Shown here in pieces: positions 36,164 through 52,446 of a stretch of 64,000 nucleotides of DNA. The number at the start of each line of letters is the position of its first letter. The stretch's first letter is position 1. A model generated the notes under the pieces. That model made no database searches, had not been told where the DNA came from, and saw only the letters and a program-made list of their open reading frames with translations. The DNA is from an uncultured Neomegalonema sp. (GTDB lineage Bacteria > Pseudomonadota > Alphaproteobacteria > Rhodobacterales > Rhodobacteraceae), in NCBI GenBank assembly GCA_937957975.1, contig CALFFK010000030.1, forward strand, positions 1 to 64,000, in the 5' to 3' direction. Position numbers and translations under genes: made by a program.

Positions 36164-36319
36164 GGTTTTTGCTCCCTCATTCATTCAGGCCAGACCATAG
36201 CGCCTTGTGCGAAGCGATAAAGGGTTAAGGGCCGCTTTCCGGCCCGTACGCGCCGTTTGCCGCCCTTGCGCCACGATGATCACCCTGTATCGAAGGGGCA
36301 ACAATTCGGGAGACCCCTC

Positions 36320-37711: not shown

Positions 37712-37722
37712 TCTGCACTCCG

Positions 37723-40104
37723 TCATTTCTGCGGTGGGTCGCCGTAATTCCCCTTCGCCCGCTCCTTGGTTGGATCAAAATGGGCAAAGCGGACTACTTC
37801 CGCTTTCAGGCGTTTCTGGTGACCATCAAGCTGCCCGATTTCCAGCGCCGTGCCGATTTCGGAGACGGTCGTATCCACCCGCGCCAGCGCGATAACCTTG
37901 CCGAGAATTGGTGATTTCACCGCTGAAGTGACCACCCCGACCTGCGCCTTGCCGAGCCGGACGCAATCGCCATGCGATGGCACAATCCCGCCTTCCACAT
38001 CCAGTCCGACCAGTTTTTCGCGCGGGTTGGCTTTGCGCCGTTCAATCGCCGTGCGCCCAATGAAATCGTCTTCCTGTGTTTTCAGCGGCACGGTGAAGCC
38101 GATGCCCGCTTCAAAGGGATCAGTCGTATCGTCGAACTCATACCCCGCAAAGATCAATCCGGCTTCGGTGCGCAGCATGTCGAGCGCCTCCAGCCCGCAG
38201 GGGATCAGTCCGTGTTCCTGCCCCGCCTCCCAGATGGCATCAAACACTTCCACGGCATCGCGGGGATGGCAAAAGACTTCATACCCCAGCTCCCCCGTAT
38301 ACCCCGTGCGCGAGACAACAACCGCCGTCCCTTGCAAATCACCGATCCGCGCGGGCGCAAAACGGAACCATTCCAACTCGCTCATGGTTGGTTGATCCGG
38401 GTTCGTCCAGAATACCGCTTCCATGATCTTGCGCGCGTTCGGCCCCTGTACGGCGATATTGTGCAATTGGTCGGTGGAAGATCGCACCCACGCCTGAAGC
38501 CCGTGCTTCTGCGCCTGTTCACGCAGCCAAAGGCCAGAGGTGTCGTTCCCCCCGATCCAGCGGAACAGGTTCTCACCCAGCCGGAAGACCGTGCCGTCAT
38601 CAATCATGCCGCCATGGTCATAACACATGGCTGTGTAGACCACGCCGCCCGTGGCCAGCTTTTTCATGTTCCGCGTGACGCACATTTGTAGCAGCGCCTC
38701 GGCATCCGGCCCTGTCACTTCGTATTTGCGCAGGGGCGACAGGTCCATGACCACTGCCTTTTCGCGGCAGGCCCAATATTCAGCGACCGCCCCATGGGCG
38801 TTCATCTTGTTGGCCAGCCAATAGCCATTATACTCCACGAAGTCGCGGGTATGGCGCGCGAAACAATCGTGGAAGCCGGTTTTTGTCGTCTCGTTCAAGT
38901 CATCCTCCACGCTCGCGCGCCAGCCAATCGAGCGCGTGAATGTCTCGTCCGCGCCATAGACGCGCACCTGAATATCTGTCGGGTTCCAGCCATTGGTCGC
39001 ATCTATGTCCGACGGACAGGCGGTGGAGACGCAGACCAGATCATCGAGTGCCTGTAACAGCAGATAATCGCCGGGGCGCGTCCACGGGTCGTCATGGGAA
39101 ATCTGATGATGGTCATCGAGGGCTGTGTTGTAAAAGAAGTTCAGGGCGGGCCATGAACTGCGTGGCTTGAGGCCGAACGCCCCGGTCGTCGCGTTGATAT
39201 TGTCCGTGCAGTTCACATGCCCCGGATAGCCCGCATCCTCATACCCGCGCGCCGTACAGGCCGCGCCAAAGGTATCGTGCCGTCCTACCGTATCCTGAAT
39301 AACCTCGACCAGTGGTTCGTGATCGACCGACCAGTATTTTGAAAGGATGCCGGGCTGTGGATAGAGGCTGCCATTCATCGAGCGGGTCGTGGTCGGGTCG
39401 ATTTCATGCTCGATCCCTGCATCAATCTTGCGCTGGCTGAAAGCCTGAAAATCGGAAGCTTCGCGGCCCTGCACATCAAGGATCTGTATCCATTCGCCTT
39501 TTTTGACCTGATAGGCATGGGCGCGCCCCGGTCGCAGGTTCACATCCATCAGCGTATCGGCCAGCGGGTCGGGCGGGGCAAGGGTTTCGCTGCGCTCACG
39601 CGGAGTAATGCGGCGGATATAGGCGACGAGATCAGTGGGGGCGTCCTGATCGTGGGGTGACATCGGCGTGCCGGGCGCGCTGATAATCAACGTGCCGGAC
39701 GTCGTGGCCGTCACCGTTTCCATGTCTCCCGCGCGTGAGCCTTGGGCGAACAGGCGCACGGCCTGACCCTTGGCAAGATCAAGGCCGCGATCATCAAGCG
39801 CCGCCCGCATTTTTGTGGCCGATGCCCCCCCGCTTGCCAGCAACGCCTGCGCCCCTTCGGGAGAACCGGAAGAGGGCCGCCCCAACATCGTCGCATCCGA
39901 TATGCCGCTTGTATCGAAGAATACGAGTTCAGCGGGTTGCAGTCCTTCACGATCCTGCACCGTGATTTCGTCGCCCGCTTCTATCTGAACCATCAGCGAA
40001 CCAAGCGCGGCGATAGGATGGCGCTCCATATCATCAGGCAGGATTGGCAGGCCGGGGATGATGACCCCGCCATGTTCCAGCGGCCTTTCAAAACCGTCCA
40101 TCAC
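37723..40104 (-). CDS. tdm: Trimethylamine N-oxide demethylase (DUF1989-GcvT fusion)
   Basis: A 793-residue protein matching Tdm, which converts TMAO to dimethylamine and formaldehyde. The N-terminal half (to about 420) contains the DUF1989 catalytic domain. Its metal-site cysteines C283, C299 and C363 have spacing 16 and 64, the same as I recall for the Methylocella enzyme, with D218 at the equivalent offset. The C-terminal half (about 425-790) is a GcvT-like folate-binding domain, thought to capture formaldehyde as methylene-tetrahydrofolate. The first 4 bases overlap the permease gene, so it is the last gene of the importer operon. A simple aminomethyltransferase annotation would miss the N-terminal enzyme. 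Confidence 0.92.
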   Translation of the reverse strand: MMDGFERPLEHGGVIIPGLPILPDDMERHPIAALGSLMVQIEAGDEITVQDREGLQPAELVFFDTSGISDATMLGRPSSGSPEGAQALLASGGASATKMRAALDDRGLDLAKGQAVRLFAQGSRAGDMETVTATTSGTLIISAPGTPMSPHDQDAPTDLVAYIRRITPRERSETLAPPDPLADTLMDVNLRPGRAHAYQVKKGEWIQILDVQGREASDFQAFSQRKIDAGIEHEIDPTTTRSMNGSLYPQPGILSKYWSVDHEPLVEVIQDTVGRHDTFGAACTARGYEDAGYPGHVNCTDNINATTGAFGLKPRSSWPALNFFYNTALDDHHQISHDDPWTRPGDYLLLQALDDLVCVSTACPSDIDATNGWNPTDIQVRVYGADETFTRSIGWRASVEDDLNETTKTGFHDCFARHTRDFVEYNGYWLANKMNAHGAVAEYWACREKAVVMDLSPLRKYEVTGPDAEALLQMCVTRNMKKLATGGVVYTAMCYDHGGMIDDGTVFRLGENLFRWIGGNDTSGLWLREQAQKHGLQAWVRSSTDQLHNIAVQGPNARKIMEAVFWTNPDQPTMSELEWFRFAPARIGDLQGTAVVVSRTGYTGELGYEVFCHPRDAVEVFDAIWEAGQEHGLIPCGLEALDMLRTEAGLIFAGYEFDDTTDPFEAGIGFTVPLKTQEDDFIGRTAIERRKANPREKLVGLDVEGGIVPSHGDCVRLGKAQVGVVTSAVKSPILGKVIALARVDTTVSEIGTALEIGQLDGHQKRLKAEVVRFAHFDPTKERAKGNYGDPPQK

Positions 40105-42125
40105 GCGACTCCCAGTTGCCGTTTACGCTCTGCCGCCCATGATCCGATCAGGCGGTCAGCGATAATCCCCAGCGCGGCGATAAAGAACCCGGCGAGGATG
40201 CCGCGTCCGAAGTTCTGCGTTGAGATGGATCGCACAACTTCCTGCCCCAGATCAGTCGAGCCGATCAGCGCCGTGATCGCCGTCATGGCCAGCGCCATCA
40301 TAATCGTCTGGTTCAGCCCCAGCATGATCTCCGGCAGGGCCACGGGCAATTCAACCTTGAACAGCCGCTGCATCCGTGTCGCGCCATTGGCGATAGCGGC
40401 TTCGATGGTCACGGGCGGGATGCGTTTGAGGCCCAGATACGTGTAGCGGATCGCGGGCACGGTCGCATAAGGCAGGATCGCGAAGATGTTCGCAAAATCC
40501 CCGATGCGGAACAGCATGATGGCCGGGATCAAATAGATGAAACTTGGGAAAGTCTGGAGCGTATCGCAGATTGGCATAATGATATTGGCCACCCGTTCCG
40601 AACGCGCCGCCCATATTCCCAAAGGAACGCCGATCATCACGCAAAGCGCGGCGGCGATGAGAACCAGATAGGTTGTTTTCATCGTCTCGACCCAGAAGCC
40701 GGTCACGATAAAGCTGAACATCAGCGCCAGACAGAGCAACAGCACCGATAACCCGCCCAGACGCCATGCCGCCAGCCCGATAACTCCCACGAAAACAGGC
40801 CATGGCAGCCAGAGGAAGAAATCGCGCACGGGTAGCAAGATCCAGATCGTCACCCAGTCGCGGATTGGATTGATATAATCGAAGGCCACGACGTTGAAAT
40901 CCCGGATCGCCTGATCCGCGTGGCGGGCCAACAGTTTGGCATCGAACAGCACCGTCTTGGCATCGCCCGTTCCCCAGACGAATTTCGAGGGTGGAATCTT
41001 GACCCATCTCCAGTATTCGGCGGCGATATAGCTGACCACGAGAATACCGAGGAACAGCAGCATATGCTTATGACGCTGCGTCCAGGTCTTGGTGGCGGCG
41101 AAATGGTCGGTTTCCTTATAGGCATAGGCTTGCGTCAGCCGGTCGAGAACGATGGCGATAAGCGAAATCGCGATGCCCTGCTCGATGGCCACGCCAAGGC
41201 GAAGCTGTTGCAGCGAGTACAGCAGCTTATGCCCAAGGCCCGTGGCCCCGGCGATGGAGGCGATGACCACCATGGCAAGCGTTTGCATCACCACCTGATT
41301 GAGGCCCAGCATCAGGGTGCGCTTTGAGGAGGGCAGGGCGACTTTCCACAGCAATTGCCGCTTGGTACATCCCGACATCTGCCCCGCTTCCAGCACATCG
41401 GACGATACAGTCTGAAGACCGAGAATTGTACAGCGTGCCATGGGGGGCATGGCGAAAATCACCGTGGCAATCAGTGCTGTCACCGGCCCAAAGGCGAACA
41501 AGGCGGCGACAGGGGCCAGATAAGCCATATGTGGCGTCGCCTGCATCAGATCGAACATGGGCGAGATAATGCGCGAGGCGGTTTGGGACCGTGTAACCCA
41601 TATGCCCAGCACCACGCCCAGCAATGCGGCCATGGGGACGGCGACGATGACAATCGTCATCGTCTTCATCGAGTCTTTCCACAGGTTGAAGGTCGCGAGA
41701 TAGATCATGGTCAGAACGCAGAGCAGCGCCAGTCGCCGCCCCCCGACCCAATGGGCAAAGATCGTCACCCCTGCGGCCACCGCCACCCATGGCAAGGGAC
41801 CAAGACCGATGCCCTTGAAACCGCGATAAAGCAGGTATTCTGCCCATTTTACGGGTGCTTTCAGGGCCGCGCCGATGCCGCGTGTGATTTCCTTGAACTC
41901 GACACCAAAGATCGTGGCTTCACTTTTCAGCCACTCGATAAATTCTGTGATCCACGCCGCCATCGGAACGGTCCAGGCTTCTGGCCAGCGGGTCGCCCCA
42001 TCCCAGACGAGCGACAGAAGAACGCCAAAGATGATGATGGCGGCGAATTGCGCCCAGAGCGGTATTGCTGCGAGCGAAAAGCCACGGTTTGTTTCTGTAG
42101 CGGTCGGAGCGGTCGCTTCGGTCAT
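40101..42125 (-). CDS. tmoW: TMAO/betaine-type ABC transporter permease, fused double domain
   Basis: A 674-residue inner membrane protein containing two copies of the OpuAB/ProW permease domain in tandem. Each has the EAA-like loop (for example LEAGQMSGCTKRQLLWKVALPSS in the first and VTIEAAIANGATRMQRLFKVELP in the second). Most ProW proteins have one such domain; a fused pair is known for TMAO transporters. It is coupled by 4-base overlaps both to the ATPase gene before it and to tdm after it, which makes TMAO the most likely substrate, although choline or glycine betaine cannot be excluded. Confidence 0.8.
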   Translation of the reverse strand: MTEATAPTATETNRGFSLAAIPLWAQFAAIIIFGVLLSLVWDGATRWPEAWTVPMAAWITEFIEWLKSEATIFGVEFKEITRGIGAALKAPVKWAEYLLYRGFKGIGLGPLPWVAVAAGVTIFAHWVGGRRLALLCVLTMIYLATFNLWKDSMKTMTIVIVAVPMAALLGVVLGIWVTRSQTASRIISPMFDLMQATPHMAYLAPVAALFAFGPVTALIATVIFAMPPMARCTILGLQTVSSDVLEAGQMSGCTKRQLLWKVALPSSKRTLMLGLNQVVMQTLAMVVIASIAGATGLGHKLLYSLQQLRLGVAIEQGIAISLIAIVLDRLTQAYAYKETDHFAATKTWTQRHKHMLLFLGILVVSYIAAEYWRWVKIPPSKFVWGTGDAKTVLFDAKLLARHADQAIRDFNVVAFDYINPIRDWVTIWILLPVRDFFLWLPWPVFVGVIGLAAWRLGGLSVLLLCLALMFSFIVTGFWVETMKTTYLVLIAAALCVMIGVPLGIWAARSERVANIIMPICDTLQTFPSFIYLIPAIMLFRIGDFANIFAILPYATVPAIRYTYLGLKRIPPVTIEAAIANGATRMQRLFKVELPVALPEIMLGLNQTIMMALAMTAITALIGSTDLGQEVVRSISTQNFGRGILAGFFIAALGIIADRLIGSWAAERKRQLGVA

Positions 42126-43147
42126 GCTGCCCTCGTGCCAAATATCGAGGTGGCGATTGTCTGCCGGTCGATTGAGCCAACGATGGTGTTATTACCCTCA
42201 TCCATCACGGCGACAGGATGTTCGGAAGTCAGTACCTGTTCGGCCACTGACCCGATCTTGGCGCTCATCGGTACCGTACCGCTCGCATTACCAGCCACGG
42301 GCTGCATGATCGCGCCGACCGAGACAATGCGCTCGCGTGGGGCGTTTTTGGCGAATTCGGCCACATAATCGTCAGCGGGGTTGAGAACCAGTTCTTCGGG
42401 GGTGGCAAGTTGCACCATCCGGCCATCCTTCATAATCCCGATGCGGTCAGCGAGTTTGGTCGCCTCCTCAAAATCATGGGTGATGAACACGATGGTCTTG
42501 TGCAGCAGGGATTGCAGGCGGATAAATTCATCCTGCATCTCTGCACGGATCAGGGGATCAAGCGCGCTGAATGGTTCATCCAGAAACCAGATATCCGGTT
42601 CGATGGCGAGACTGCGGGCGATGCCAACGCGTTGCTGCTGGCCCCCTGACAATTCACGCGGGAAATAGGATTCACGGCCTGAAAGGCCGACCAGTTCGAT
42701 CATGGCCTTGGCGCGTTCGATGCGCTCTGGTCTGGCAATGCCCTGTACTTCCAGCGGGAAGGCGACGTTTTCAAGCACGTCGCGGTGTGGCAGCAGACCG
42801 AAATTCTGGAAAACCATGCCCATCTTGTGGCGGCGCATGTCGATCAGGTCGCGTTCGGAGAGTTTGAGGAGGTCACGGCCCTCATACTCCATTTCACCAC
42901 TCGTGGGGTCGTTGAGGCGGGTGATACAGCGGATCAGTGTCGATTTGCCGGAACCGGATAGTCCCATGATAATAAGGATTTCGCCTTGGTGGACGTCAAA
43001 ACTGACATCCTGCACCGCGCCGATATAGCCTTCATCCGCCAGCGCTTCTGCTGTTGGTGCGCCATTATGGCGGTGTAAAAACCCTTTCGGATCGGCTCCA
43101 AAGACTTTCCAGAGATTGCGGCATTTGATCTGGACGTCGGTGGGCAT
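42122..43147 (-). CDS. tmoV: TMAO/betaine-type ABC transporter ATP-binding protein
   Basis: A 341-residue ProV-like ATPase. Walker A is GLSGSGKST, the signature is LSGGQQQRVGIARSLA and Walker B is IWFLDEPFSALD. A C-terminal regulatory extension of about 80 residues, CBS-like, follows (AVMDEGNNTIVGSIDRQ). I start it at 43147, where GAAGG lies 5 bases upstream; an ATG at 43177 lies inside a palindromic repeat and is unlikely. It overlaps the permease gene by 4 bases. Confidence 0.82.
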   Translation of the reverse strand: MPTDVQIKCRNLWKVFGADPKGFLHRHNGAPTAEALADEGYIGAVQDVSFDVHQGEILIIMGLSGSGKSTLIRCITRLNDPTSGEMEYEGRDLLKLSERDLIDMRRHKMGMVFQNFGLLPHRDVLENVAFPLEVQGIARPERIERAKAMIELVGLSGRESYFPRELSGGQQQRVGIARSLAIEPDIWFLDEPFSALDPLIRAEMQDEFIRLQSLLHKTIVFITHDFEEATKLADRIGIMKDGRMVQLATPEELVLNPADDYVAEFAKNAPRERIVSVGAIMQPVAGNASGTVPMSAKIGSVAEQVLTSEHPVAVMDEGNNTIVGSIDRQTIATSIFGTRAA

Positions 43148-43173
43148 GGCGGCCTTCTTTTTTGTTTGGGTTG

Positions 43174-43235
43174 TCATTCCCGCAAAAACGGAAACCTCCC
43201 TGAGCGAAGTGAGGGTCCCGTTTTTGCGGGAATGA
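43174..43235. repeat. Long palindrome between tmoX- and tmoV-type genes
   Basis: 18-bp perfect arms TCATTCCCGCAAAAACGG (43174-43191) and its complement (43218-43235) flank a 26-base centre that itself can fold (CCTC with GAGG). Palindromes with a TCATTCCCGC core are common dispersed repeats in alphaproteobacteria. It sits within the importer operon, between the binding-protein and ATPase genes, where such elements commonly reduce expression of the downstream genes relative to the binding protein. Confidence 0.85.
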
Positions 43236-43247
43236 GAAAGGTTGGTT

Positions 43248-43269
43248 GCCCCGGCGCTTTGGCCGGGGC
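43248..43269. terminator. GC hairpin just after the binding-protein gene
   Basis: A perfect 8-bp stem GCCCCGGC (43248-43255) / GCCGGGGC (43262-43269) with a 6-base loop, 13 bases past the stop of the binding-protein gene on the minus strand. Together with the neighbouring palindrome it probably stabilises or partly terminates the mRNA, which would raise the amount of binding protein. Confidence 0.6.
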
Positions 43270-43282
43270 AGGAAGTGCCGGA

Positions 43283-44224
43283 TTACTCCATCCAGCTTTT
43301 CACGATGTCGCCGTTATCTTCGATCCACTTTTCAGCGGCTTCTTCCGGCTCCATGCCGTCCACATCGACCATCAGGGCCGCTGCGGCGATTTGGGCGTTA
43401 TTGAAATCGACCTTCTGGAGCGCGGCCCATGCGCCGGGCCATTCTTCTGGCAGACGGGGCGAAGCCGCCTTCTTCAGCCAACCGCTGTGTGGTGCGCCAC
43501 AATCGCCGGTGGCGTTGGGGTTTGGACCCCATTCCTTGACCTCGTTGCAGGCGTCGCTTGGTGCCGGGAAGTCCACAAACTGGCCTTCAAACTTCGATTC
43601 GATGAAGTTGGGCGTCCAGTTGAAGAGGACAATAGGCTCCTTGCGGTCATAGGCGGATTGCAGTTCGGCCCAGAGGGTCGCGGCCTGTCCGACGTTGATC
43701 GCTTCAAAATCCATTTCCAGCGCACCGACACGATCCGCGTAGTTCTTGCCCCAGTCGGCAGGTGGGCCAACGAAGCGGCCTTTTGGTTTGGTCTCTGCTG
43801 TGGCGAACTGTTCTGCACAGCGATTAAGACCTTCCCATGAGCCAGCGCCGGGGCAGGTTTCGAGCACATAATTCGGAATCCACCATTCCTCACGGGTCAG
43901 CGCAGAATGTGTACCAGCGTCGAGCATACCGTTTTCGGCGGCTTTCTCGAAGGCAGATTTCATCGAGCCTTCCCAGGCCTCGACCTGAAAGTCCATGTCG
44001 TTATCGGCCATCGCCTGAAACTGGAGCTGGCTATCGGAAGGGGCGTATTCGACAGTGTAACCCATTTTTTCAAGGGTTTTGCCAACCACGTAGGACAGCA
44101 CGAGCTGGCTGGTCCAGTTATTCTGAACGATGATAATAGGCTCGTCGGATTCGACCTCGGCGGCGGCCATTCCCGGTGCAAGCATCAGCGCGGCAAGTGC
44201 TACGCCCTTGAGCAGGTTCTTCAT
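43283..44224 (-). CDS. tmoX: TMAO/betaine-type substrate-binding protein
   Basis: A 313-residue periplasmic binding protein of the OpuAC class. A clear signal peptide (KNLLKGVALAALMLAPGMAAA) is followed by the mature domain, rich in Trp and acidic residues that form aromatic boxes for quaternary amines (for example EAWEGS, REEWWIP, LFNWTPNF). GGGAG is placed 8 bases before the ATG at 44224. By family it could bind TMAO, glycine betaine or choline; linkage to tdm favours TMAO. A 163-base gap upstream may hold its own promoter; a GTTGCAAC palindrome lies about 10 bases before the start. Confidence 0.82.
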   Translation of the reverse strand: MKNLLKGVALAALMLAPGMAAAEVESDEPIIIVQNNWTSQLVLSYVVGKTLEKMGYTVEYAPSDSQLQFQAMADNDMDFQVEAWEGSMKSAFEKAAENGMLDAGTHSALTREEWWIPNYVLETCPGAGSWEGLNRCAEQFATAETKPKGRFVGPPADWGKNYADRVGALEMDFEAINVGQAATLWAELQSAYDRKEPIVLFNWTPNFIESKFEGQFVDFPAPSDACNEVKEWGPNPNATGDCGAPHSGWLKKAASPRLPEEWPGAWAALQKVDFNNAQIAAAALMVDVDGMEPEEAAEKWIEDNGDIVKSWME

Positions 44225-44387
44225 TATACTTCTCCCTTGTTGCAACAGTTAGTTGTCATGTTGGTTCTTGCTTATCCGGCGCTCTTGTCGGCTCCTTCGA
44301 AACTGTCATCCCACGCCCTTCATCAGTGCGCGGGCATAAGTCTGCCTCTGTTTCCTTGCTGCTGGCAAGGTATTCTGCGGATCACGT

Positions 44388-44981
44388 TTATGCGCCCCGC
44401 ACGGCGGGGTCGGCGGTGGCCCCGGACCAGTCCGGCTCAAATCCAAGGATCGTGCAGTCCTGGGTAAGCGCGGGGTTAAACAGGTGATTGTGCCAGAACG
44501 TCGCCTGAAACAGCGGATTATGCGCCGCCAGCGTCCAGACGCGGCAGGGCAGGGTATATTTCTGGCGATAGGCGTCGAAGGCCAGCGTACAGAATTCTGC
44601 CTTGCGGATGTCTTGCGCGCCCGGTGATCCCGGTGGAAAGGTCGAGGTCAGGGTATCTGAGAAGGTTTCGCCCTTCTGATAATACGTCTCCGAAAAGAAC
44701 CGCAGGGCATTATCGCGGCGCTGGGCCGGATCATTCGTCTTGCGGATCATGTGCTGCATTTCGGTTATAACCGAATGGCCCGGAGCCTTGCTCATCACGG
44801 TGATGATATGGCCGAGTGGTTCTTCGTGGCCCGCCAGCGTCACGGCAGGCATAATTCCATCGCCGGGACGTCCCATCTCGTCGCGCATAATCATCTGCCG
44901 AATGCGACATTGCCACCGCAGAAAGGCGGTGCGAATTGCGGTTTCCTCTGGTGCGAGGGGAAGGGAAGAAGCGGGAATCAT
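44388..44981 (-). CDS. Unrecognised protein in the TMAO cluster (197 residues)
   Basis: I do not recognise this family. The product is soluble-looking with no signal peptide or membrane helix. It starts MIPASSLPLAPEETAIRT and contains LRWQCRIRQMIMRDEMGRPGDG, four conserved-looking Cys, a YYQKGETFSD segment and a His/Trp/Asn-rich stretch FQATFWHNHLFNPAL that could form a metal or ligand site. The start at 44981 has GAGG about 8 bases upstream; a GTG at 45026 gives 15 more residues without a ribosome site. Its place between the glutamate-synthase-like genes and the importer suggests a role in methylated amine breakdown. Confidence 0.7.
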   Translation of the reverse strand: MIPASSLPLAPEETAIRTAFLRWQCRIRQMIMRDEMGRPGDGIMPAVTLAGHEEPLGHIITVMSKAPGHSVITEMQHMIRKTNDPAQRRDNALRFFSETYYQKGETFSDTLTSTFPPGSPGAQDIRKAEFCTLAFDAYRQKYTLPCRVWTLAAHNPLFQATFWHNHLFNPALTQDCTILGFEPDWSGATADPAVRGA

Positions 44982-45042
44982 GGTACGCACCTCGCCCTCA
45001 GCGAAGATCGGGGTGTCGTGAGCCACAGGCCGTTATGTTCAG

Positions 45043-45079
45043 CACGCGGTTGCGTGAAACCCCCGGCCTTTGCCGGGGG
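45043..45079. repeat. Two hairpins between the unknown genes
   Basis: CACGC (45043-45047) / GCGTG (45052-45056), then CCCCCGGC (45060-45067) / GCCGGGGG (45072-45079). They fill the gap between the two unrecognised genes and resemble the other intercistronic hairpins of this cluster. Confidence 0.65.
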
Positions 45080-45099
45080 CATGGGAACGGGGCTGCGCA

Positions 45100-45513
45100 T
45101 CAATATTTCCGATACGCCTCGCGCAATTGCACGAGGGGATGGCGTTCGGACATCTGGAACTTGATGAGCAATTCGCGCGCAATCATGTCCCGGTCCTGCT
45201 GGTTGTCGGGCAGGTCGATGGTGTCAGGCACCCGCACCCAACCGTTGATGTTGCGGTCAAACACGGCGGGCTTGCCCTCTTCATAGCCCATGTGGACATC
45301 CTCAAGCCAGTTGAGGTCATCCCAGCCCATTTCCTCGATATATTTGGTGAGGAAGGGCGTTATGCGATTGTAATCAGGAACCAGATTCACATCGTAGCGA
45401 TAGCCGATGTGCTGTCCGATTTCCTTTTCGCGCTCGGAGGCAAGCCCCGCCGCATCCTTGACGAACTGATCGACGTCGAGGATTTCCGACCCGCGATATT
45501 GTGTTCCGGCCAT
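45100..45513 (-). CDS. Unrecognised protein in the TMAO cluster (137 residues)
   Basis: A 137-residue acidic, soluble-looking protein of no family I can name. The N-terminus reads MAGTQYRGSEILDVDQF; a central part (IGYRYDVNLVPDYNRITPFLTKYIEEMGWDD) and the tail MSERHPLVQLREAYRKY are probably helical. AGGAG stands 7 bases before the ATG, so translation is well supported. It lies between the glxD-type gene and the other unknown protein, in the same direction, with hairpin elements on both sides. It may be a small subunit or assembly factor for the amine-handling enzymes; that is a guess from position. Confidence 0.75.
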   Translation of the reverse strand: MAGTQYRGSEILDVDQFVKDAAGLASEREKEIGQHIGYRYDVNLVPDYNRITPFLTKYIEEMGWDDLNWLEDVHMGYEEGKPAVFDRNINGWVRVPDTIDLPDNQQDRDMIARELLIKFQMSERHPLVQLREAYRKY

Positions 45514-45536
45514 TTTTCTTCTCCTTTTCGCCGCAT

Positions 45537-45603
45537 CCCCGCACTTTATGCGGGGTCTCGATGGGCGATGTGCTGTCCGTCGAGGCCCCGGATGAATCCG
45601 GGG
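45537..45603. repeat. Composite hairpin repeat upstream of the 137-residue gene
   Basis: CCCCGCA (45537-45543) / TGCGGGG (45549-45555), followed by TCTCGAT, a 24-base spacer, and CCCCGGA (45586-45592) / TCCGGGG (45597-45603). The same order of parts recurs at 47046-47103, so this is a mosaic repeat and not a simple terminator. Confidence 0.75.
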
Positions 45604-45615
45604 CTGCGTGCTTTT

Positions 45616-46992
45616 TCAGAGTTTGTGATAATTATCGACGCCGACGGTGTATTCCGTTCCGGCGAGGGGCACAGCGGCCATTGCAGAGGCTTCCATCGTC
45701 AGCGCCGCCAGATCTTCTGGTTCCAGCGAGTGGATGTTGGTCTTGCCACAGGCGCGGGCGAAGAGTTGCGCTTCAATGGTCAGAGTATGCAGGAAGTTAT
45801 ACACCCGCTCTGCTGCTTCATCGGGATCAAGACGTTTGCGAAGCTCCGGGTCTTGCGTCGCAATGCCGACCGGACAGCGGCCCGTGTGGCAATGGTAGCA
45901 ATAGCCCGCCTCAACGCCCATCTCATTCTCGAAATCGGCTTCGGGGATGTCCTTGTTGCAATTCATCGCCATCAGCGAGGAATGGCCGATTGCGATGGCA
46001 TCCGCGCCCAGCGCAATCGCTTTGGCCACATCGGCCCCGTTGCGGATACCGCCCGCATAGACCAGCGTGATGTCGCCGCGTTTGCCCAGATCGTCGATGG
46101 CCTTGCGTGCCTGACGGATCGCTGCAATGCCGGGAACGCCGGTATCTTCGGTCGCGAAGTGTGGTCCGGCTCCTGTGCCGCCCTCCATGCCGTCGATATA
46201 GATCGCGTCAGGATCGCATTTCACGGCCATACGAACATCATCGTAGACGCGCGCCGCACCCAGTTTCAACTGGATCGGAATCTGCCAGTCGGTTGCTTCG
46301 CGAATTTCCTGAATCTTCAGCGCCAGATCATCGGGGCCGAGCCAGTCGGGGTGGCGAGCTGGCGAGCGTTGGTCGATCCCGGCGGGCAGTGAACGCATCT
46401 CGGCAACCTGATCGGTCACTTTCTGGCCCATGAGGTGGCCACCAAGGCCGACCTTACAGCCCTGACCAATGAAGAATTCACAGGCATCGGCCAGCTTCAG
46501 GTGGTGCGGGTTAAAGCCGTAGCGCGACTGGATGCACTGGTAATACCACTTGGTCGAATAGCGCCGCTCATCGGGGATCATGCCCCCTTCACCGGAGCAG
46601 GTTGCCGATCCGGCCATGGTCGCCCCTCGCGCCAGTGCGGTCTTGGCCTCAAAGGACAGCGCACCAAAGGACATGCCCGTGATGTAGACCGGAATATCCA
46701 GATCAATGGGGCGCTTTGCGCGCGGACCAATGACTGTGCGCGTCTCGCATTTTTCGCGATAGCCTTCGATCACGAAGCGGGTCAGCGTACCGGGCAGGAA
46801 TGTCAGGTCATCCCAATGCGGAATTTTCTTGAACAATGAAAAGCCACGCATCCGATACCGTCCGAGTTCGGACTTGATGTGGATGTCATCCATGACCCGT
46901 GGCGGGAAGATAAAGCTGTCCCCAAGCCGGTTCGTGTCGCGCTTTGCTGTCGCTGGCGCCATGTGCGCCGGTGTTTCGCCGTCTGCGGCCAT
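45616..46992 (-). CDS. glxD: Glutamate synthase-like FMN subunit (GlxD/MgsC type)
   Basis: A 458-residue homologue of the FMN-binding domain of glutamate synthase. The synthase barrel is seen from DIPVYITGMSFGALSFEAK through IDGMEGGTGAGP and LVYAGGIRNGADVAKAIALGADAIAIG. The iron-sulfur cysteines are in CYHCHTGRCPVGIATQ. In the N-methylglutamate pathway the corresponding MgsC joins MgsA and MgsB to move methylamine onto glutamate; GlxD is the name used where the function is not tested. AAGGA precedes the start. It follows glxC by about 125 bases containing a repeat. Confidence 0.88.
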   Translation of the reverse strand: MAADGETPAHMAPATAKRDTNRLGDSFIFPPRVMDDIHIKSELGRYRMRGFSLFKKIPHWDDLTFLPGTLTRFVIEGYREKCETRTVIGPRAKRPIDLDIPVYITGMSFGALSFEAKTALARGATMAGSATCSGEGGMIPDERRYSTKWYYQCIQSRYGFNPHHLKLADACEFFIGQGCKVGLGGHLMGQKVTDQVAEMRSLPAGIDQRSPARHPDWLGPDDLALKIQEIREATDWQIPIQLKLGAARVYDDVRMAVKCDPDAIYIDGMEGGTGAGPHFATEDTGVPGIAAIRQARKAIDDLGKRGDITLVYAGGIRNGADVAKAIALGADAIAIGHSSLMAMNCNKDIPEADFENEMGVEAGYCYHCHTGRCPVGIATQDPELRKRLDPDEAAERVYNFLHTLTIEAQLFARACGKTNIHSLEPEDLAALTMEASAMAAVPLAGTEYTVGVDNYHKL

Positions 46993-47045
46993 TGTTGCGG
47001 TCCTTGTCTTGGGTCGCGGGGAGCGCCTTTGTTTTTCGGCGCATC

Positions 47046-47103
47046 TCCGGGACTTGATCCGGGGTCTCGATATGTTTTGCGAAGCCCCGCACCTTCATGC
47101 GGG
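47046..47103. repeat. Composite hairpin repeat between glxC and glxD
   Basis: A CCGG-rich imperfect hairpin (TCCGGGACTTGATCCGGGG) is followed by TCTCGAT, a short spacer and a stem CCCGCA (47086-47091) / TGCGGG (47098-47103). It shares the CGGGGTCTCGAT core with the element at 45549-45562. A CCGGACTTGATCCGG core is a known dispersed motif in alphaproteobacteria. Confidence 0.75.
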
Positions 47104-47119
47104 ACAGCGGTATTCAAGC

Positions 47120-48034
47120 TCAGAGGATCAGCTTTTTCTCGTTCGGTTCGAGGTTGTCGTAGTTCCAGAGCTGCTTGCCCGCGACGATCTTGGTGAAGTG
47201 ATCGACACCCTTTTCAGGCATCAGGCCGTATTGGGTCAGCTTGCGGGTCAGCCACGCCTTGTCGAGATCGGTCAGTTCCGCCGGGATCGCATCGACCCCG
47301 TAATCCTTGACCTCGCCACCGACATAGATCGTGCCGTCATACATCGAATCGCCCAGGTTTTTACCTGCATTGCCACAGATGACCATGCGTCCGCGCTGCA
47401 TCATAAAGCCCGAAAACGCGCCCGTATCGCCACCGACGATGATCGTGCCGCCCTTTTGGTCGATGCCTGTGCGCGAGCCAACCGAACCGCGACAAACGAG
47501 ATCGCCACCACGCATCGCTGCGCCGAAGGTCGAGCCTGCGTTCTTCTCGATCAGCACCGTGCCGGACATCATGTTCTCGCCACAGGACCAGCCAACCCGG
47601 CCCTTGATCCGCACATTCGGGCCGTCAATCAGGCCAACGCCGAAATAACCGATGGAGCCTTCAACGATCAGGTTCAGTTTGTTGAGAATACCGACGCCGA
47701 CCGAGTGCATCCCACGCGGGTTTTTCAGGACTATGGTACCGTAACCCTCTTCCATCAGGGCGCGGATATCCTTGTTCACCTGCGTCGTGGGTTTGCCTTC
47801 ACAGTCGAGTTCGGTGCGTTTGTTGAAATCAACCTTGTCCGCATAGGGATAGACAAGATTTTCTTCCTCACCGACCTCAAAGAACACTTCCATGGAGCGG
47901 TTCTTGAGCTGTTCAGACATCATCCCCAGATCGCGGGCGCGATCTTCCTGGGTCGTGCCCTCTACTTCGTCGCGGGTTTTGCCTGCACGGGGATCATACC
48001 CCATGTCTTCGGCCATAACGCTCATGCTTTCCAT
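47120..48034 (-). CDS. glxC: Glutamate synthase-like GXGXG subunit (GlxC/MgsB type)
   Basis: A 304-residue protein whose C-terminal two thirds form the right-handed beta-helix of glutamate synthase, with repeated Gly motifs (GVGLIDGPNVRIKG, GNAGKNLGDSMYDG). The first 60 or so residues are a polar, acidic extension that I believe is longer than in typical stand-alone GlxC proteins. GAGGAG stands 8 bases before the ATG at 48034, giving a 13-base overlap with glxB; a second ATG at 48025 would overlap by 4. It probably channels or positions substrate between the GlxB and GlxD subunits. Confidence 0.87.
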   Translation of the reverse strand: MESMSVMAEDMGYDPRAGKTRDEVEGTTQEDRARDLGMMSEQLKNRSMEVFFEVGEEENLVYPYADKVDFNKRTELDCEGKPTTQVNKDIRALMEEGYGTIVLKNPRGMHSVGVGILNKLNLIVEGSIGYFGVGLIDGPNVRIKGRVGWSCGENMMSGTVLIEKNAGSTFGAAMRGGDLVCRGSVGSRTGIDQKGGTIIVGGDTGAFSGFMMQRGRMVICGNAGKNLGDSMYDGTIYVGGEVKDYGVDAIPAELTDLDKAWLTRKLTQYGLMPEKGVDHFTKIVAGKQLWNYDNLEPNEKKLIL

Positions 48035-48957
48035 ACGCGAATCTCCTCGTCGTAGGGGTCGGTGGTGTCGATTTCCTGAGGCAGGATCGCGCGGATGGCG
48101 ACTTCTTCCGAAGCCATGGCGATCATGTCGTCGCTCTCGTAGAGGACCAGCGGTTTTGCGGCCATGGTGTCCTTGGCCATGCCCAGCTCGTCTTTTGTGG
48201 CGACTAGATAGGTGAAGACGCCATCAATCTCTTCAATGGAGGCTTTGAGGCTGTCTTCCAGCGTCGCGCCATTGGCAAGATTGTCGGCGGTATAGACGGC
48301 CAGCAATTCACTGTCGCAGGACGACATGAAGCGGTGTCCACGCTGCTCCATCTGGCGGCGTTTCAGCCAGTAATTCGTGATCTGTCCGTTATGCACGACC
48401 GACACGTCATTATACGGGAACGCCCAATAGGGGTGTGCCGAGCGAATATCGACGTCGGATTCCGTGGCCATGCGGGTGTGACCGATGCCATGGGTTCCCT
48501 TGAAATCGCGCAGACCATAGCTGTCGGCCACGACATTGGCGTCACCCAGATCCTTGATGAGTTCCAGCGAATTGCCGAGCGAGAGGATTTCAGTACCCTC
48601 AACGTCCTCGATATAACGCGCCATCGCCTCGGTATCGCCGTCATGGGTTATGACATAGCGCATGGCGTAGGGGGTCGCGGCATCCTTGGCCTTGATGCTG
48701 GCCTTGTGTTCGGCGAGTCGCTTTTCGACCATCGCGACACGCGCGTCGATCTTGTCCTGCATGTCGTAGCCGGAGGCCATATCCTCCTGCTCCGCCACTT
48801 TCAGACGCATGATGTAATCACCCGCATTCGGTTCGCCATAGACGGCAAAGCCGGTCGAGTCAGGGCCGCGATGCTTGAGCGCGGTCAACATTGAGGTCAT
48901 TTCGGACCCAACGTCCGAGCTTTTCCCTCTATGGATTAGTCCGGCAATGCCGCACAT
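48022..48957 (-). CDS. glxB: Class II glutamine amidotransferase (GlxB/MgsA type)
   Basis: A 311-residue N-terminal-nucleophile amidotransferase. The start at 48957 places Cys at position 2 (MCGIAGLIHRG), as required for this class, and GGAGG lies about 8 bases upstream. Further motifs are KHRGPDSTGFAVYG and HTRMATESDVDIRSAHPYW. In glutamate synthase this domain releases ammonia from glutamine; in N-methylglutamate synthase (MgsA) the donor is gamma-glutamylmethylamide and the product is methylamine. Which donor is used here is not decidable by eye. Confidence 0.88.
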   Translation of the reverse strand: MCGIAGLIHRGKSSDVGSEMTSMLTALKHRGPDSTGFAVYGEPNAGDYIMRLKVAEQEDMASGYDMQDKIDARVAMVEKRLAEHKASIKAKDAATPYAMRYVITHDGDTEAMARYIEDVEGTEILSLGNSLELIKDLGDANVVADSYGLRDFKGTHGIGHTRMATESDVDIRSAHPYWAFPYNDVSVVHNGQITNYWLKRRQMEQRGHRFMSSCDSELLAVYTADNLANGATLEDSLKASIEEIDGVFTYLVATKDELGMAKDTMAAKPLVLYESDDMIAMASEEVAIRAILPQEIDTTDPYDEEIRVWKA

Positions 48958-49065
48958 GGGGTATTCCTCCAGAATAGCGGCAAGATGCCGCAAGTGTCCT
49001 GTCCGGCGGGAAATAGAAGCCGCCGATTGGGTCGTGGGGCAAATGCCCTTTGTTTTACTAGGCCT

Positions 49066-49161
49066 CTCCCTTTTCGGGGAGGTCGGGTGGGGAAGTGACA
49101 TTTCACCGGAACAACAATTCCGTGTGAAAAGATCACTACCCCTTCCCCCTCCCGTGGGGAG
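49066..49161. repeat. Two hairpins between glnT-like and glxB genes
   Basis: CTCCC (49066-49070) / GGGAG (49077-49081) inside GGCCTCTCCCTTTTCGGGG, and CTCCC (49149-49153) / GGGAG (49157-49161) extended by flanking CTTCCCC/AAGGGGG. They occupy the 228-base space after the ligase gene. The pattern is that of widespread GGGAG-type dispersed hairpins. Confidence 0.6.
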
Positions 49162-49185
49162 AAGGGGGAAGAAACGCCTTAAACC

Positions 49186-50712
49186 TTACGGCAGGCACTC
49201 CATATACGTTTCCTTGTCCCAATCGGTGACGGTTGCCATGGAACGCTCGTATTCGTCGGTTTTGTATTCGTGATAGAGGCGGTACATCTCGCCTGGCAGA
49301 CCGCGTTTGACGACCTCTGATCCTTCCAGATGGGTCAGGGCATCGCCGAGGGTCATGGGCAGTTTCTTGACCTGCTTGCCCGCTTCCATCGCTTCGTAGA
49401 TGTTACGCTCTTCCGGCTCGCCGGGATCGAGGTTGTTATCCAGGCCATCGTCCATCGCGGCCAACAGGGTTGAACCCATCAGATACGGGTTCACCATCGA
49501 ATCGACCGAGCGATACTCAAAGCGACCAGGGGCCGAAACGCGCAGGCCCGTAGTCCGGTTCTGGAAGCCCCAATCCGCAAAGACCGGTGCCCAGAAGCCT
49601 GCATCCCAGAGGCGGCGGTACGAATTGACCGTCGAGCAACCAATAGCGGTCAGCGCCTGAAGATGATGCACCACACCACCGATGGCTTTCAGACCTTCGG
49701 GACCAGGCATCTGCGGATCATCGCCATCGGGCATGAAGGTATTGTTGCCACCCTTCACGTACATATAGTTGTCAGCCATACCCGGAAGCTTGTCGGGATC
49801 ATTGCCGCATTTGACCATATGATCTTCGCCGCCACTCCACAGGCTCATGTTGTGGTGACAGCCAGAGGCCGAGACGCCCATGAATGGCTTGGTCATAAAG
49901 CATGCAAAGATGCCATGTTCGCGGGCGACCTGTGCACAGATCTGGCGGTATGTCGTCAGGCGGTCAGCATTGCGTAGCACATCATCGAACATCCAGTTGA
50001 GCTCGAGTTGGCCGGGGGCGTCCTCATGGTCGCCCTGAATCATATCGAGGCCCATTTTCCGCGCATAGCGGATCACCTGTAGCGTGACTGGACGCAGGCT
50101 CTCGAACTGATCAATGTGGTAACAATAGGGTTTTGAGAAACCGGGGCCGGGTTTGCCATTCTCATCGAATTTCAGCCACATCATCTCCGGCTCGGTGCCG
50201 ATGCGAAGCTGTGTGCCGTGCTTCTTGGTAAATTCCTTGTGCATCCGGCGCAGGTTGCCGCGACAATCAGAAGTCAGAAATCCGCCGGGATTTTCTTTCT
50301 CTTCCCGGTTGCGGAACAATGTGCAGTAGAAGCGCCCGATAGTCGGAGCCCAAGGTAACTGCATGAAAGTTTCCGGCTCAGGGATGCCGACCAGTTCGGC
50401 GGCTTCAGGGCCATAGCCCATGTAATCGCCTGCGCGGTTCAGGAACAGATTCATCGTCGCGCCGTAGACGAGCTGGAAGCCCTTTTTCGCAACCGATTCC
50501 CAGTGATCCGCCGGGATGCCTTTACCCATGATCTTGCCGGTCACAGAGACGAATTGCAGATAGAGATACTCAATTCCCAGTTCGTCAATCTTTGCACGAA
50601 CCTGCTTGATCTTCTCTTCCCGGCCTTCTTCTTCGACGAATTCTTCGATGTCCATCGGCACGCTTTTTCTCCCCGTTGACGTCATGGTGTAATGTGACTG
50701 CCGGTCATTCAT
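49186..50712 (-). CDS. glnT: Glutamine synthetase-like ligase (GlnT/GmaS type)
   Basis: A 508-residue (or 489 from the ATG at 50655) member of the glutamine synthetase superfamily, type III/GmaS branch. ATP and metal sites are seen as RIGTEPEMMW, MIQGDHEDAPGQLELN, GCHHNMSLW and RVSAPGRFEYRSVDSMVNPY. In the N-methylglutamate pathway GmaS joins methylamine to glutamate; GlnT-type enzymes may use ammonia. Being first of a run that continues with glxBCD and the TMAO genes argues for an amine other than ammonia. No good ribosome site marks a start: ATG at 50712, 50685 and 50655 are all possible. Confidence 0.85.
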   Translation of the reverse strand: MNDRQSHYTMTSTGRKSVPMDIEEFVEEEGREEKIKQVRAKIDELGIEYLYLQFVSVTGKIMGKGIPADHWESVAKKGFQLVYGATMNLFLNRAGDYMGYGPEAAELVGIPEPETFMQLPWAPTIGRFYCTLFRNREEKENPGGFLTSDCRGNLRRMHKEFTKKHGTQLRIGTEPEMMWLKFDENGKPGPGFSKPYCYHIDQFESLRPVTLQVIRYARKMGLDMIQGDHEDAPGQLELNWMFDDVLRNADRLTTYRQICAQVAREHGIFACFMTKPFMGVSASGCHHNMSLWSGGEDHMVKCGNDPDKLPGMADNYMYVKGGNNTFMPDGDDPQMPGPEGLKAIGGVVHHLQALTAIGCSTVNSYRRLWDAGFWAPVFADWGFQNRTTGLRVSAPGRFEYRSVDSMVNPYLMGSTLLAAMDDGLDNNLDPGEPEERNIYEAMEAGKQVKKLPMTLGDALTHLEGSEVVKRGLPGEMYRLYHEYKTDEYERSMATVTDWDKETYMECLP

Positions 50713-50767
50713 CGCCAGCGTGTTTTTTTGAGTCGTTTTCAGTTACACGCATCTTCAAACCACTCGC

Positions 50768-50825
50768 AACCAATTTTTACAATTGGTTTATAATTGGTCT
50801 TTTTTATTCAAGCACTTTTTTGTGC
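50768..50825. promoter_or_regulatory. AT-rich operator-like region upstream of the glnT-like gene
   Basis: An 8-bp inverted repeat AACCAATT (50768-50775) / AATTGGTT (50781-50788) is followed by a further AATTGGT (50792-50798) and by GCAC-TTTTTT-GTGC (50812-50825). The region is far richer in A+T than its surroundings and lies between the divergent glnT-like gene and the DUF1194 gene. It most likely holds the promoters and a regulator site; a sigma-54 pattern was looked for and is not convincing. Confidence 0.5.
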
Positions 50826-50866
50826 AGGCATTGCCTTTTCGGGAATCCTTGCTCTAGCGTGGAGGG

Positions 50867-51622
50867 ATGAAGTTTCTGGTCCCTGCTTTATGTCTCTTTG
50901 CCATCCCTGCCGCTGCGCAGGAGAGTGCGCCCGATGTGGACCTCGAAATCGTTCTCGCTGTGGATGGTTCCGGGTCAATCAGCGCAAGGGAATTCAGGTT
51001 GCAACTGGAGGGCTATGCGAATGCCCTGCGCGATGAGGCGGTACAATCGGCGGCGGTGTCGGGGCCAATTGGCAAAGTGGCGATTGCGTTGATGGTCTGG
51101 TCGGATGCGGCATTCAAGAAGTTCGAAACGGACTGGTTCATTATTGATTCACGCGAGGCGGCGGGGCGCTACGCTGATATTCTGGAAATCTTCCATGTTC
51201 ATTCGGGCCGCAATTACGGGATAGGCGGGGGTGGCACGGGCATTGGCGCAGGGATCGAATACGCCCTTGAAATGATTGATGAGAACGGCATCGAAGCGCG
51301 ACGGCGAACCATTGATGTCTCTGGTGACGGGGTTGAGACTGACCCATGGTTTCGTGAGGCAATGGTGCTGCCCGAAGCCCGCGCCCTTGCGGCGTCGAAG
51401 GACGTAACCGTCAATGGCCTTGCAATCCTGACCGATTTCAAGGCGCTCGACCGCTATTACGAAGACGAGATGATTACCGGGCCGGGGGCGTTCGTCATCG
51501 AAGCGAAAGATTTTGACGCCTTTGCCGAGGCGATCCAGCGAAAACTGTTTCTGGAATTCCTGTCACCGATTGCGAAGGACGCAGAGCGTCGGTACGCGCT
51601 CGGAGAAACTCCACCTGATTGA
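50867..51622 (+). CDS. Exported DUF1194 protein with von Willebrand factor A-like domain
   Basis: A 251-residue protein with a signal peptide (KFLVPALCLFAIPAAAQ) and a vWA fold. The metal-adhesion site residues are visible: DGSGSIS near residue 34, a conserved Thr in GGTGIG, and SGDGVETD. DUF1194 proteins are periplasmic or surface proteins of unknown partner. A GGAG sits only 2-3 bases before the ATG, closer than usual. It is divergent from the glnT-like gene. Confidence 0.82.
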   Translation: MKFLVPALCLFAIPAAAQESAPDVDLEIVLAVDGSGSISAREFRLQLEGYANALRDEAVQSAAVSGPIGKVAIALMVWSDAAFKKFETDWFIIDSREAAGRYADILEIFHVHSGRNYGIGGGGTGIGAGIEYALEMIDENGIEARRRTIDVSGDGVETDPWFREAMVLPEARALAASKDVTVNGLAILTDFKALDRYYEDEMITGPGAFVIEAKDFDAFAEAIQRKLFLEFLSPIAKDAERRYALGETPPD

Positions 51623-51651
51623 CCGTAATGGGCCGCAAGGTCGAAAGCGTG

Positions 51652-52446
51652 TCAGACCGAAAAGACGTTCGAAATGCTGCTGACGATCGAGTCTGTGATC
51701 CAGCTCCGTAGAAAAATCCAGTCGAAGAAGAGGCAGGCGACGAAGATCATCCAGAACTGGTAGCCCGTTGCCGCCCAGTCCTGAAGCAGAACCGTCCTGG
51801 CCCAGTCTTGCTGGAAAAGGTAATCGTAAGCCGCCCATGCCGTGTAACCGGTGACGGCGACAGAGAAGAGTGCGATGCGTGTGCTCAATGATCGGCGCGT
51901 GGCTATCAAGACCAATGCGAGCGACAGCACCATGAAATTGACCAGACCGAAACGCCGCAGGTCGGAGGTCATCCCGCTGACTGCCCGGTCATAGCGCCCG
52001 ACAATGAAGTCCTGAAGGCTTGTTTCGCCCAACCGCAGGCCGGACACTGCCTTGACCATCACACTGTCAGTCATTCGCGTGCTTTTCACCCACGGGTTGC
52101 AATCGTTTCCGCACCGTTCGGAAAGCGCATTGGCGAGGACGCCCTGAACGAAGCGTTCGTGCTTTTCCTCGATCTTTTCTGCCTTGTCTGCGAGCGATCC
52201 TGCGAAGGCCATGAGCTTGCCGATGGCTCCGGTTTGGCTGGTTGGACCGGTTTGCTTGATTTCGCTCCAATTCGCTTCGGTGGCGTGCCCGGCTTTGGTG
52301 AAGGCGAGCTGTTGATACCGGTCCTCGACCTGCCCCGGATCGAGATAAGTAACCAGCACCAGAAACGCGGAGAGAAGCACCCCGGCCAACTGGATCGCCA
52401 TGACGGTTAATCTGCTTTTGGTGCCCATAACGCTGCGATACGGCAT
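51652..52446 (-). CDS. Hypothetical membrane protein
   Basis: A 264-residue protein with no family I recognise. An N-terminal membrane helix (about 14-34) precedes an external region of about 120 residues, which contains a probable disulfide pair in ERCGNDCNPW. Three more helices lie in the C-terminal half (about 165-255). The ATG at 52446 or one at 52428 may be used. It lies between the DUF1194 gene and rpsA and is convergent with the former. The 250 bases between it and rpsA hold the rpsA leader. Confidence 0.6.
   Translation of the reverse strand: MPYRSVMGTKSRLTVMAIQLAGVLLSAFLVLVTYLDPGQVEDRYQQLAFTKAGHATEANWSEIKQTGPTSQTGAIGKLMAFAGSLADKAEKIEEKHERFVQGVLANALSERCGNDCNPWVKSTRMTDSVMVKAVSGLRLGETSLQDFIVGRYDRAVSGMTSDLRRFGLVNFMVLSLALVLIATRRSLSTRIALFSVAVTGYTAWAAYDYLFQQDWARTVLLQDWAATGYQFWMIFVACLFFDWIFLRSWITDSIVSSISNVFSV

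Follow-up and report, generated by a model that had tools for sequence, protein, structure and literature searches.

Among genomes that encode the TMAO demethylase Tdm, a cluster composed of a glutamine-synthetase-like (GS-like) ligase, type I GlxB, GlxC and GlxD and a small protein of 137 residues (P137) occurs where clear genes for the dimethylamine monooxygenase (Dmm) are lacking. We tentatively read this cluster, at a little under even chances, as a monooxygenase-independent, glutamate-linked route for dimethylamine, in which P137 would be a dedicated synthase subunit and its neighbor of 197 residues (P197) an accessory protein. The reading builds on genetic linkage, conservation, a modeled fold class for P197 and a distribution complementary to that of the monooxygenase, from which we infer substrate, complex and activity. 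Both small genes lie in what we call the window, the whole stretch of DNA analyzed (64,000 nucleotides of contig CALFFK010000030.1, assembly GCA_937957975.1, an uncultured Neomegalonema sp.), together with the genes listed in Table 1.

Table 1. Genes of the cluster and of the adjoining Tdm and importer region, in window coordinates.
Feature	Position	Strand	Product	Evidence
P137	45100..45513	(-)	137 aa; proposed as dedicated type I GlxBCD subunit	Conservation, linkage to type I GlxD
P197	44388..44981	(-)	197 aa; predicted PNPOx-like split barrel, proposed accessory	Model and structure searches, co-occurrence with P137
GlxD, type I	45616..46992	(-)	FMN glutamate-synthase-like domain	Domain match
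GlxC	47120..48034	(-)	Glutamate-synthase C-terminal-like domain	Domain match
GlxB	48022..48957	(-)	Class II amidotransferase, N-terminus MCGIAG	Domain match; seen in 29/29 full loci
Putative GS-like gamma-glutamyl-amide ligase, non-canonical GmaS	49186..50712	(-)		289 bits against TIGR03105 cut-off of 469.6
TmoX-like substrate-binding protein, TMAO importer	43283..44245	(-)		ProX/choline-binding-like, below cut-off; substrate named from gene place
TmoV-like ABC ATPase	42122..43177	(-)		ORF and sequence; name putative
TmoW-like permease	40101..42125	(-)		ORF and sequence; name putative
Tdm, TMAO demethylase	37723..40104	(-)		1176 bits on NF053776, cut-off 1100

The original prediction had placed two unrecognized proteins between the glx genes and a TMAO importer, and both indeed lie between glxD and the TMAO-importer-like genes. 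The two ORFs behave as real genes, because their changes against congeners fall mostly in third codon positions, e.g., 8/6/75 by codon position for P197 against L001 (dN 0.045, dS 0.80) and 4/5/40 for P137 against L002 (dN 0.035, dS 0.65); over 12 comparisons dN was far below dS wherever it could be computed (P137 against L010 gave no dS). The predicted ribosome sites are also there, AGGAG 7 nt before the ATG of P137 and GAGG 8 nt before that of P197 (ATG at 44981), for which an alternative GTG at 45026 would give 212 residues. The two products had been said to match no family, and Pfam and NCBIfam likewise gave no match for either, a Pfam scan of 31 P197-family and 32 P137-family members gave scattered weak matches only, a PDB sequence search gave noise only for both, and neither was matched in the plasmid collection. 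The three named loci holding P197 come from assemblies of uncultured Neomegalonema, at 73 to 91% identity. Rfam gave no match over window positions 36000-52000. GC-rich hairpins of the form CCCCGG-N6-CCGGGG stand on both sides of P137 (45061-45078 and 45586-45603); with two matches in the window against 0.64 expected, a number reached in 15 of 100 shuffles, they are possibly a dispersed repeat or terminator, or chance.

P137 keeps to a single type of GlxD. In an even sample of the class (289 genomes), P137 was present in 27, and type I GlxD orthologues (at least 78% identity to the window GlxD) in 28, namely in all of these 27 and in G197, where only 107 bases separate the end of GlxD from the contig end, the position of P137 lying beyond the sequence. 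The 41 other genomes with a GlxD match reach at most 55% identity, and none of them has P137. In all 30 loci, P137 sits directly behind GlxD on the same strand, at most 208 nt away (between match ends), and its profile found only two of 398 genomes in a phylum-wide sample, the window's own (G000) and G061, both already known. The homologues thus gather beside GlxD rather than outside amine clusters, and the earlier suggestion of missing subunits in a methylated-amine cluster gains ground from the tie of P137 to one GlxD type (27 of 28 genomes) and from P197, whose 23 strong matches all fall in P137 genomes. We therefore propose that P137 would be a subunit dedicated to the type I GlxBCD complex.

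The sequence of P137 is strongly constrained, with 50 of 137 positions invariant among 32 sequences, and its structural model is of moderate quality (pLDDT 71.3). Residues 28-44 have a mean top-residue frequency of 0.96 and 10 of 17 positions invariant, yet fall below pLDDT 50; a segment so strongly conserved and modeled so loosely suggests folding on a partner, and probably does fold on one. Fold searches of the PDB with the pLDDT 71 model reached no better than Foldseek E 0.49 and VIA Z 2.3, and a profile match to 9ya3 (E 0.015) looks like chance. Several P137 homologues (L054:1366-1500, L019:868-990, L055, L059, L033) carry long Lys/Ala-rich, histone-H1-like N-terminal tails preceding the conserved core. 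Such tails would suit an alternative in which P137 and P197 act outside any enzyme complex, as regulators of amine metabolism or as its assembly factors; the lack of a recognized catalytic motif in either protein and the opposite strands of P197 and P137 in 11 of 21 loci would suit it too. We regard this alternative as unlikely, given the many invariant residues of P137 and its operon-like GlxD neighbor everywhere seen.

P197 is found in strong matches in 23 of the 289 genomes and not in four of the 27 P137 genomes (G105, G220, G231 and G252), where a profile search of the cluster loci also found no P197; a match in G263 (E 4e-4, four internal stops) was discarded as noise. In the 21 loci holding both genes, the strands agree in 10 and differ in 11, and the distance is 2 to 931 nt, with one exception at 4.4 kb. 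That P197 stays near P137 despite strand flips suggests a functional link. The model of P197 is confident (pLDDT 93.7) and resembles PNPOx-like split barrels in the PDB (Foldseek best E 1.8e-4; VIA Z up to 10.7 over 118 residues at 2.5 A), and P197 is thus predicted to have this fold. The likeness is that of a model rather than of a solved structure, whereas the sequence differs, with 4-12% identity among the matches listed, no Pfam family and conserved WQC and HN..F motifs of its own. PNPOx-like split-barrel proteins often bind FMN, F420 or heme. Concerning a cofactor, the original prediction had pointed to a His/Trp/Asn-rich patch and to several Cys: the patch proved conserved among 31 sequences (H164, N165 and F168 invariant, N169 nearly), while metal or cofactor binding by Cys found no support beyond C25, the one invariant Cys. 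Despite this little Cys conservation, the predicted fold is one that often holds flavin, F420 or heme, and P197 is perhaps a flavin-binding accessory protein. From the same fold and the conserved His-Asn patch one could go further and take P197 itself for a flavin or heme oxidase attacking dimethylamine, with P137 helping. This we hold to be very improbable, since P197 is missing from the four genomes named above, both by search and by profile, including the SAR11-like G231, which has Tdm and no Dmm.

The glx genes are not the ordinary set: they are of type I, and canonical-type GlxD and GlxC (G000:C20) and a canonical-type GmaS (G000:C82, 682 bits) are encoded elsewhere in the same genome. 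The ligase of the window scores 289.5 bits on TIGR03105, a type III glutamine synthetase model with a cut-off of 469.6. In a ligase tree of 36 rows, the 29 window-type sequences form a 100/100 group apart from seven canonical GmaS. In a GlxD tree of 35 rows, one of them very distant, four canonical-type rows form a 100/100 group and the 30 type I rows are kept together by a branch with weak support (59/60). The cluster resembles the N-methylglutamate pathway (GmaS with MgsABC/glxBCD) in its GS-like ligase adjoining separate GlxB, GlxC and GlxD genes in order, and in the methylamine-pocket residues that this ligase retains from RhGmaS. It differs in that the window-type ligase is 28-30% identical to canonical GmaS and under the TIGR03105 cut-off, type I GlxD is at most 55% identical to the canonical type, the window cluster is Tdm-linked, and the extra gene P137 is present in 30 of 30 loci. 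This cluster is not canonical gmaS-mgsABC.

What the ligase acts on bears directly on the substrate of the pathway. By alignment and by eye, it keeps the methylamine-pocket residues of RhGmaS and has a Trp replacing the flap Glu of glutamine synthetases (pocket and flap residues as given in the part of PMC7948447 consulted), which together point to an alkylamine ligase. The same excerpt gives a Km of RhGmaS for dimethylamine of about 16 mM, and efficient use of dimethylamine would therefore need a different enzyme. Nearly as likely as our preferred reading is that the cluster is a second monomethylamine (N-methylglutamate) pathway, in which a divergent GmaS would work with a type I N-methylglutamate synthase whose fourth subunit is P137; its inverse link with Dmm would then reflect gene modules traveling together, dimethylamine being handled otherwise or released. 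The kept pocket residues speak for it, as does the proposal of HTCC1062 glxBCD as N-methylglutamate synthase in the consulted part of PMC3160333. So does G253, the one exception among 29 full loci to the window-type ligase preceding GlxBCD, where (L079:2596-9500) a canonical GmaS replaces the GS-like ligase before type I GlxBCD-P137 and neither Tdm nor DAO is matched, a combination that fits a role of type I GlxBCD in methylamine use. Furthermore, of the 28 cluster genomes, 21 hold a canonical GmaS (at least 58% identity to the L086 copy) and seven gave none. The 21, together with the canonical-type GlxD of at least 13 of the 28 (at most five candidates scored per genome), would make a second set redundant and so count against the monomethylamine pathway, whereas the seven count for it. 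In six cluster genomes with canonical GmaS no other GlxD appeared among the at most five candidates scored per genome, and type I GlxBCD may serve methylamine in genomes of this kind. The link between P137 and GlxBCD is common to both readings; the strong Tdm link and the complementarity with Dmm weigh against the monomethylamine one.

Many clusters are adjoined by an FAD-dependent DAO oxidoreductase, found in 24 of 28 cluster genomes vs one of five other Tdm genomes, with no match in a search of the window's own genome. A profile comparison relates it to the sarcosine oxidase beta family, with a score far under the family cut-off; the example at L086:13307-14635 and its homologues are monomeric and FAD-dependent. 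P137 or P197 has a further conserved neighbor in five loci (L079, L090, L091, L071 and L095; cluster c16), a protein of about 282 aa that from its sequence reads as nitrilase-like and could act on a gamma-glutamyl amide.

The distribution of Tdm and Dmm gives the cluster its proposed place. In the class sample, all candidates were scored for P137, P197 and PF22290, and at most five for GlxD and three for Tdm (a match being E at most 1e-100), so that a missing second GlxD or a missing Tdm is less certain than a missing P137, P197 or PF22290. Tdm was matched in 24 of 289 genomes, 18 of them with P137 and a nineteenth being G197, i.e., in 18 of 27 P137 genomes vs six of 262 others; nine of the 27 had no match at E 1e-100, which counts against a strict TMAO link. 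A clear Dmm was defined by a best PF22290 match of at least 66 bits and a second within about 1 kb (in G307 the second falls under the family cut-off and was still accepted). By this measure, Dmm was present in none of 19 Tdm-positive cluster genomes vs three of five other Tdm genomes (G183, G276 and G307; Fisher 0.005). Of the remaining two, G046 has a partial 44% Tdm match only, and G283 has Tdm with neither cluster nor Dmm.

Closer to the window, 16 of 24 relatives (G001-G024) have Tdm. The nine Tdm-positive relatives with P197, each of which has P137 in that locus as well, lack a clear Dmm, and all five Tdm-positive relatives without P197 have one, their cluster status being judged by the P197 search rather than by a direct P137 search. 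Three of these five (G001, G006 and G013) belong to the window's own genus, and hence one system replaces the other among close relatives, the window's genus included. Combined, a clear Dmm occurs in none of 28 Tdm-positive cluster genomes, 22 of which are at least 90% complete, vs eight of 10 without the cluster (Fisher 9e-7, uncorrected for kinship; the genomes are related and the counts not independent). This count excludes G011 (no Tdm) and G003 and G009, whose contigs end at the cluster; in these two congeners (G003:C47, L129, and G009:C123, L130) the sequence breaks off either shortly before the importer genes or just within them, at the end on which P197 and P137 should follow.

DmmB-, C- and D-like genes were detected by tblastn in G276 (source of the queries), G183, G307, G001 and G023, and the evidence for Dmm in G006, G013 and G015 is that of PF22290. 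Lone weaker PF22290 matches were not counted, whether above the family cut-off (G014, G018, G020, G046 and G218; 33-43 bits) or below it (G022, G058, G187, G209 and G285). Among these, G014, G058, G187, G209 and G285 are Tdm-positive cluster genomes; counting G014 by the PF22290 family cut-off alone gives Dmm in one of 28 (Fisher 8e-6). PF11927 was tried as the sole Dmm marker, matching seven of 33 genomes including the window's and G054, and was dropped on neighborhood and PF22290: the matches in these two genomes are short HODM-like genes beside recF or a TauE gene, and strong PF22290 matches were restricted to G183, G276 and G307. These short HODM alpha-like (PF11927) proteins stand away from amine genes, at L112:7615-8391 (G000:C48) beside recF and at L113:7979-8692 (G054) beside a TauE-type gene; judged by its ORF layout, G283 has the same arrangement as G054. 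The likeness of the cluster to DmmDABC is one of pathway place after Tdm, as suggested by the complementary distribution; it differs in having no oxygenase-like gene in the window cluster and no match to PF11927 (HODM alpha-like) or PF22290 (DmmA-like) in a Pfam search of P137 with 32 family members and P197 with 31.

An apparently SAR11-like genome, G231 (1.2 Mb, one contig, 33% G+C in the stretch examined), carries on one strand Tdm, DAO, the window-type ligase, GlxBCD, P137, a gene that reads as ammonium-transporter-like and canonical GmaS, with neither Dmm nor P197. This run resembles the HTCC1062 genes described in the part of PMC3160333 consulted, namely glxBCD (SAR11_1313-1315, proposed there as N-methylglutamate synthase), glnT (SAR11_1316) and a 'monomeric sarcosine oxidase' (SAR11_1304) beside an aminomethyltransferase. 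According to excerpts of PMC5520151, dmmDABC is absent from all SAR11 genomes examined there, SAR11 and other abundant marine bacteria have genes from TMAO to dimethylamine without dmmDABC, and a bottleneck is inferred that lets aerosol-forming dimethylamine build up. An excerpt of PMC8918994 reports growth of HTCC1062 on TMAO as its source of nitrogen and raises the idea of a DmmDABC isoenzyme. Among the papers searched, none joined dimethylglutamate with dimethylamine, three related names gave nothing relevant, and the locus tag SAR11_1312 did not occur.

For the glutamate-linked dimethylamine route that we prefer, the following scenario can be drawn. The cluster (GS-like ligase, type I GlxB-GlxC-GlxD, P137, usually P197 and often DAO) would take up Tdm-made dimethylamine where Dmm is absent. 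The GS-like ligase would join dimethylamine to glutamate at the expense of ATP, giving a gamma-glutamyl amide, from which GlxB would free the amine for GlxCD to combine it reductively with 2-oxoglutarate into an N-alkylated glutamate (N,N-dimethylglutamate in this case), whose methyl groups would then be stripped by DAO or an N-methylglutamate dehydrogenase. P137 would serve as the dedicated subunit of type I GlxBCD, its residues 28-44 probably folding on a partner, and P197, with its predicted split barrel, as an accessory that perhaps binds flavin. The gap that the original prediction had perceived after TMAO demethylation would be filled better by the whole GS-like/GlxBCD/P137 cluster than by P137 and P197 alone, although both do belong to it. 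In favor of this route we counted the P137-type I GlxD linkage, the distinctness of the ligase, the Tdm link, the Dmm complementarity and the G231 gene run, and against it the nine P137 genomes without Tdm, G253, the six genomes without another GlxD and the lack of DAO in the window's genome. Also against it are G283 with neither system, G014, the four P137 genomes missing P197 and the relatedness of the genomes. Distribution cannot separate dimethylamine from methylamine as the substrate.

Taken further, bacteria without Dmm, SAR11 among them, might use an undescribed oxygenase-free route in which gamma-glutamyldimethylamide is turned into N,N-dimethylglutamate by a four-part synthase needing P137 and then demethylated by flavin dehydrogenases; in this complete form the proposal is doubtful. 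Nevertheless, a cluster that replaces the monooxygenase in Tdm genomes offers a candidate for the missing dimethylamine step that is concrete and can be tested, and the question bears on SAR11, which reportedly grows on TMAO although the known monooxygenase is missing from it. It also calls for a correction in annotation, as the ligase by type I glxBCD is easily read as gmaS, though 21 of 28 such genomes have a separate canonical gmaS. Dimethylamine is a climate-relevant, aerosol-forming amine, and many TMAO degraders carry this cluster in place of the known enzyme.
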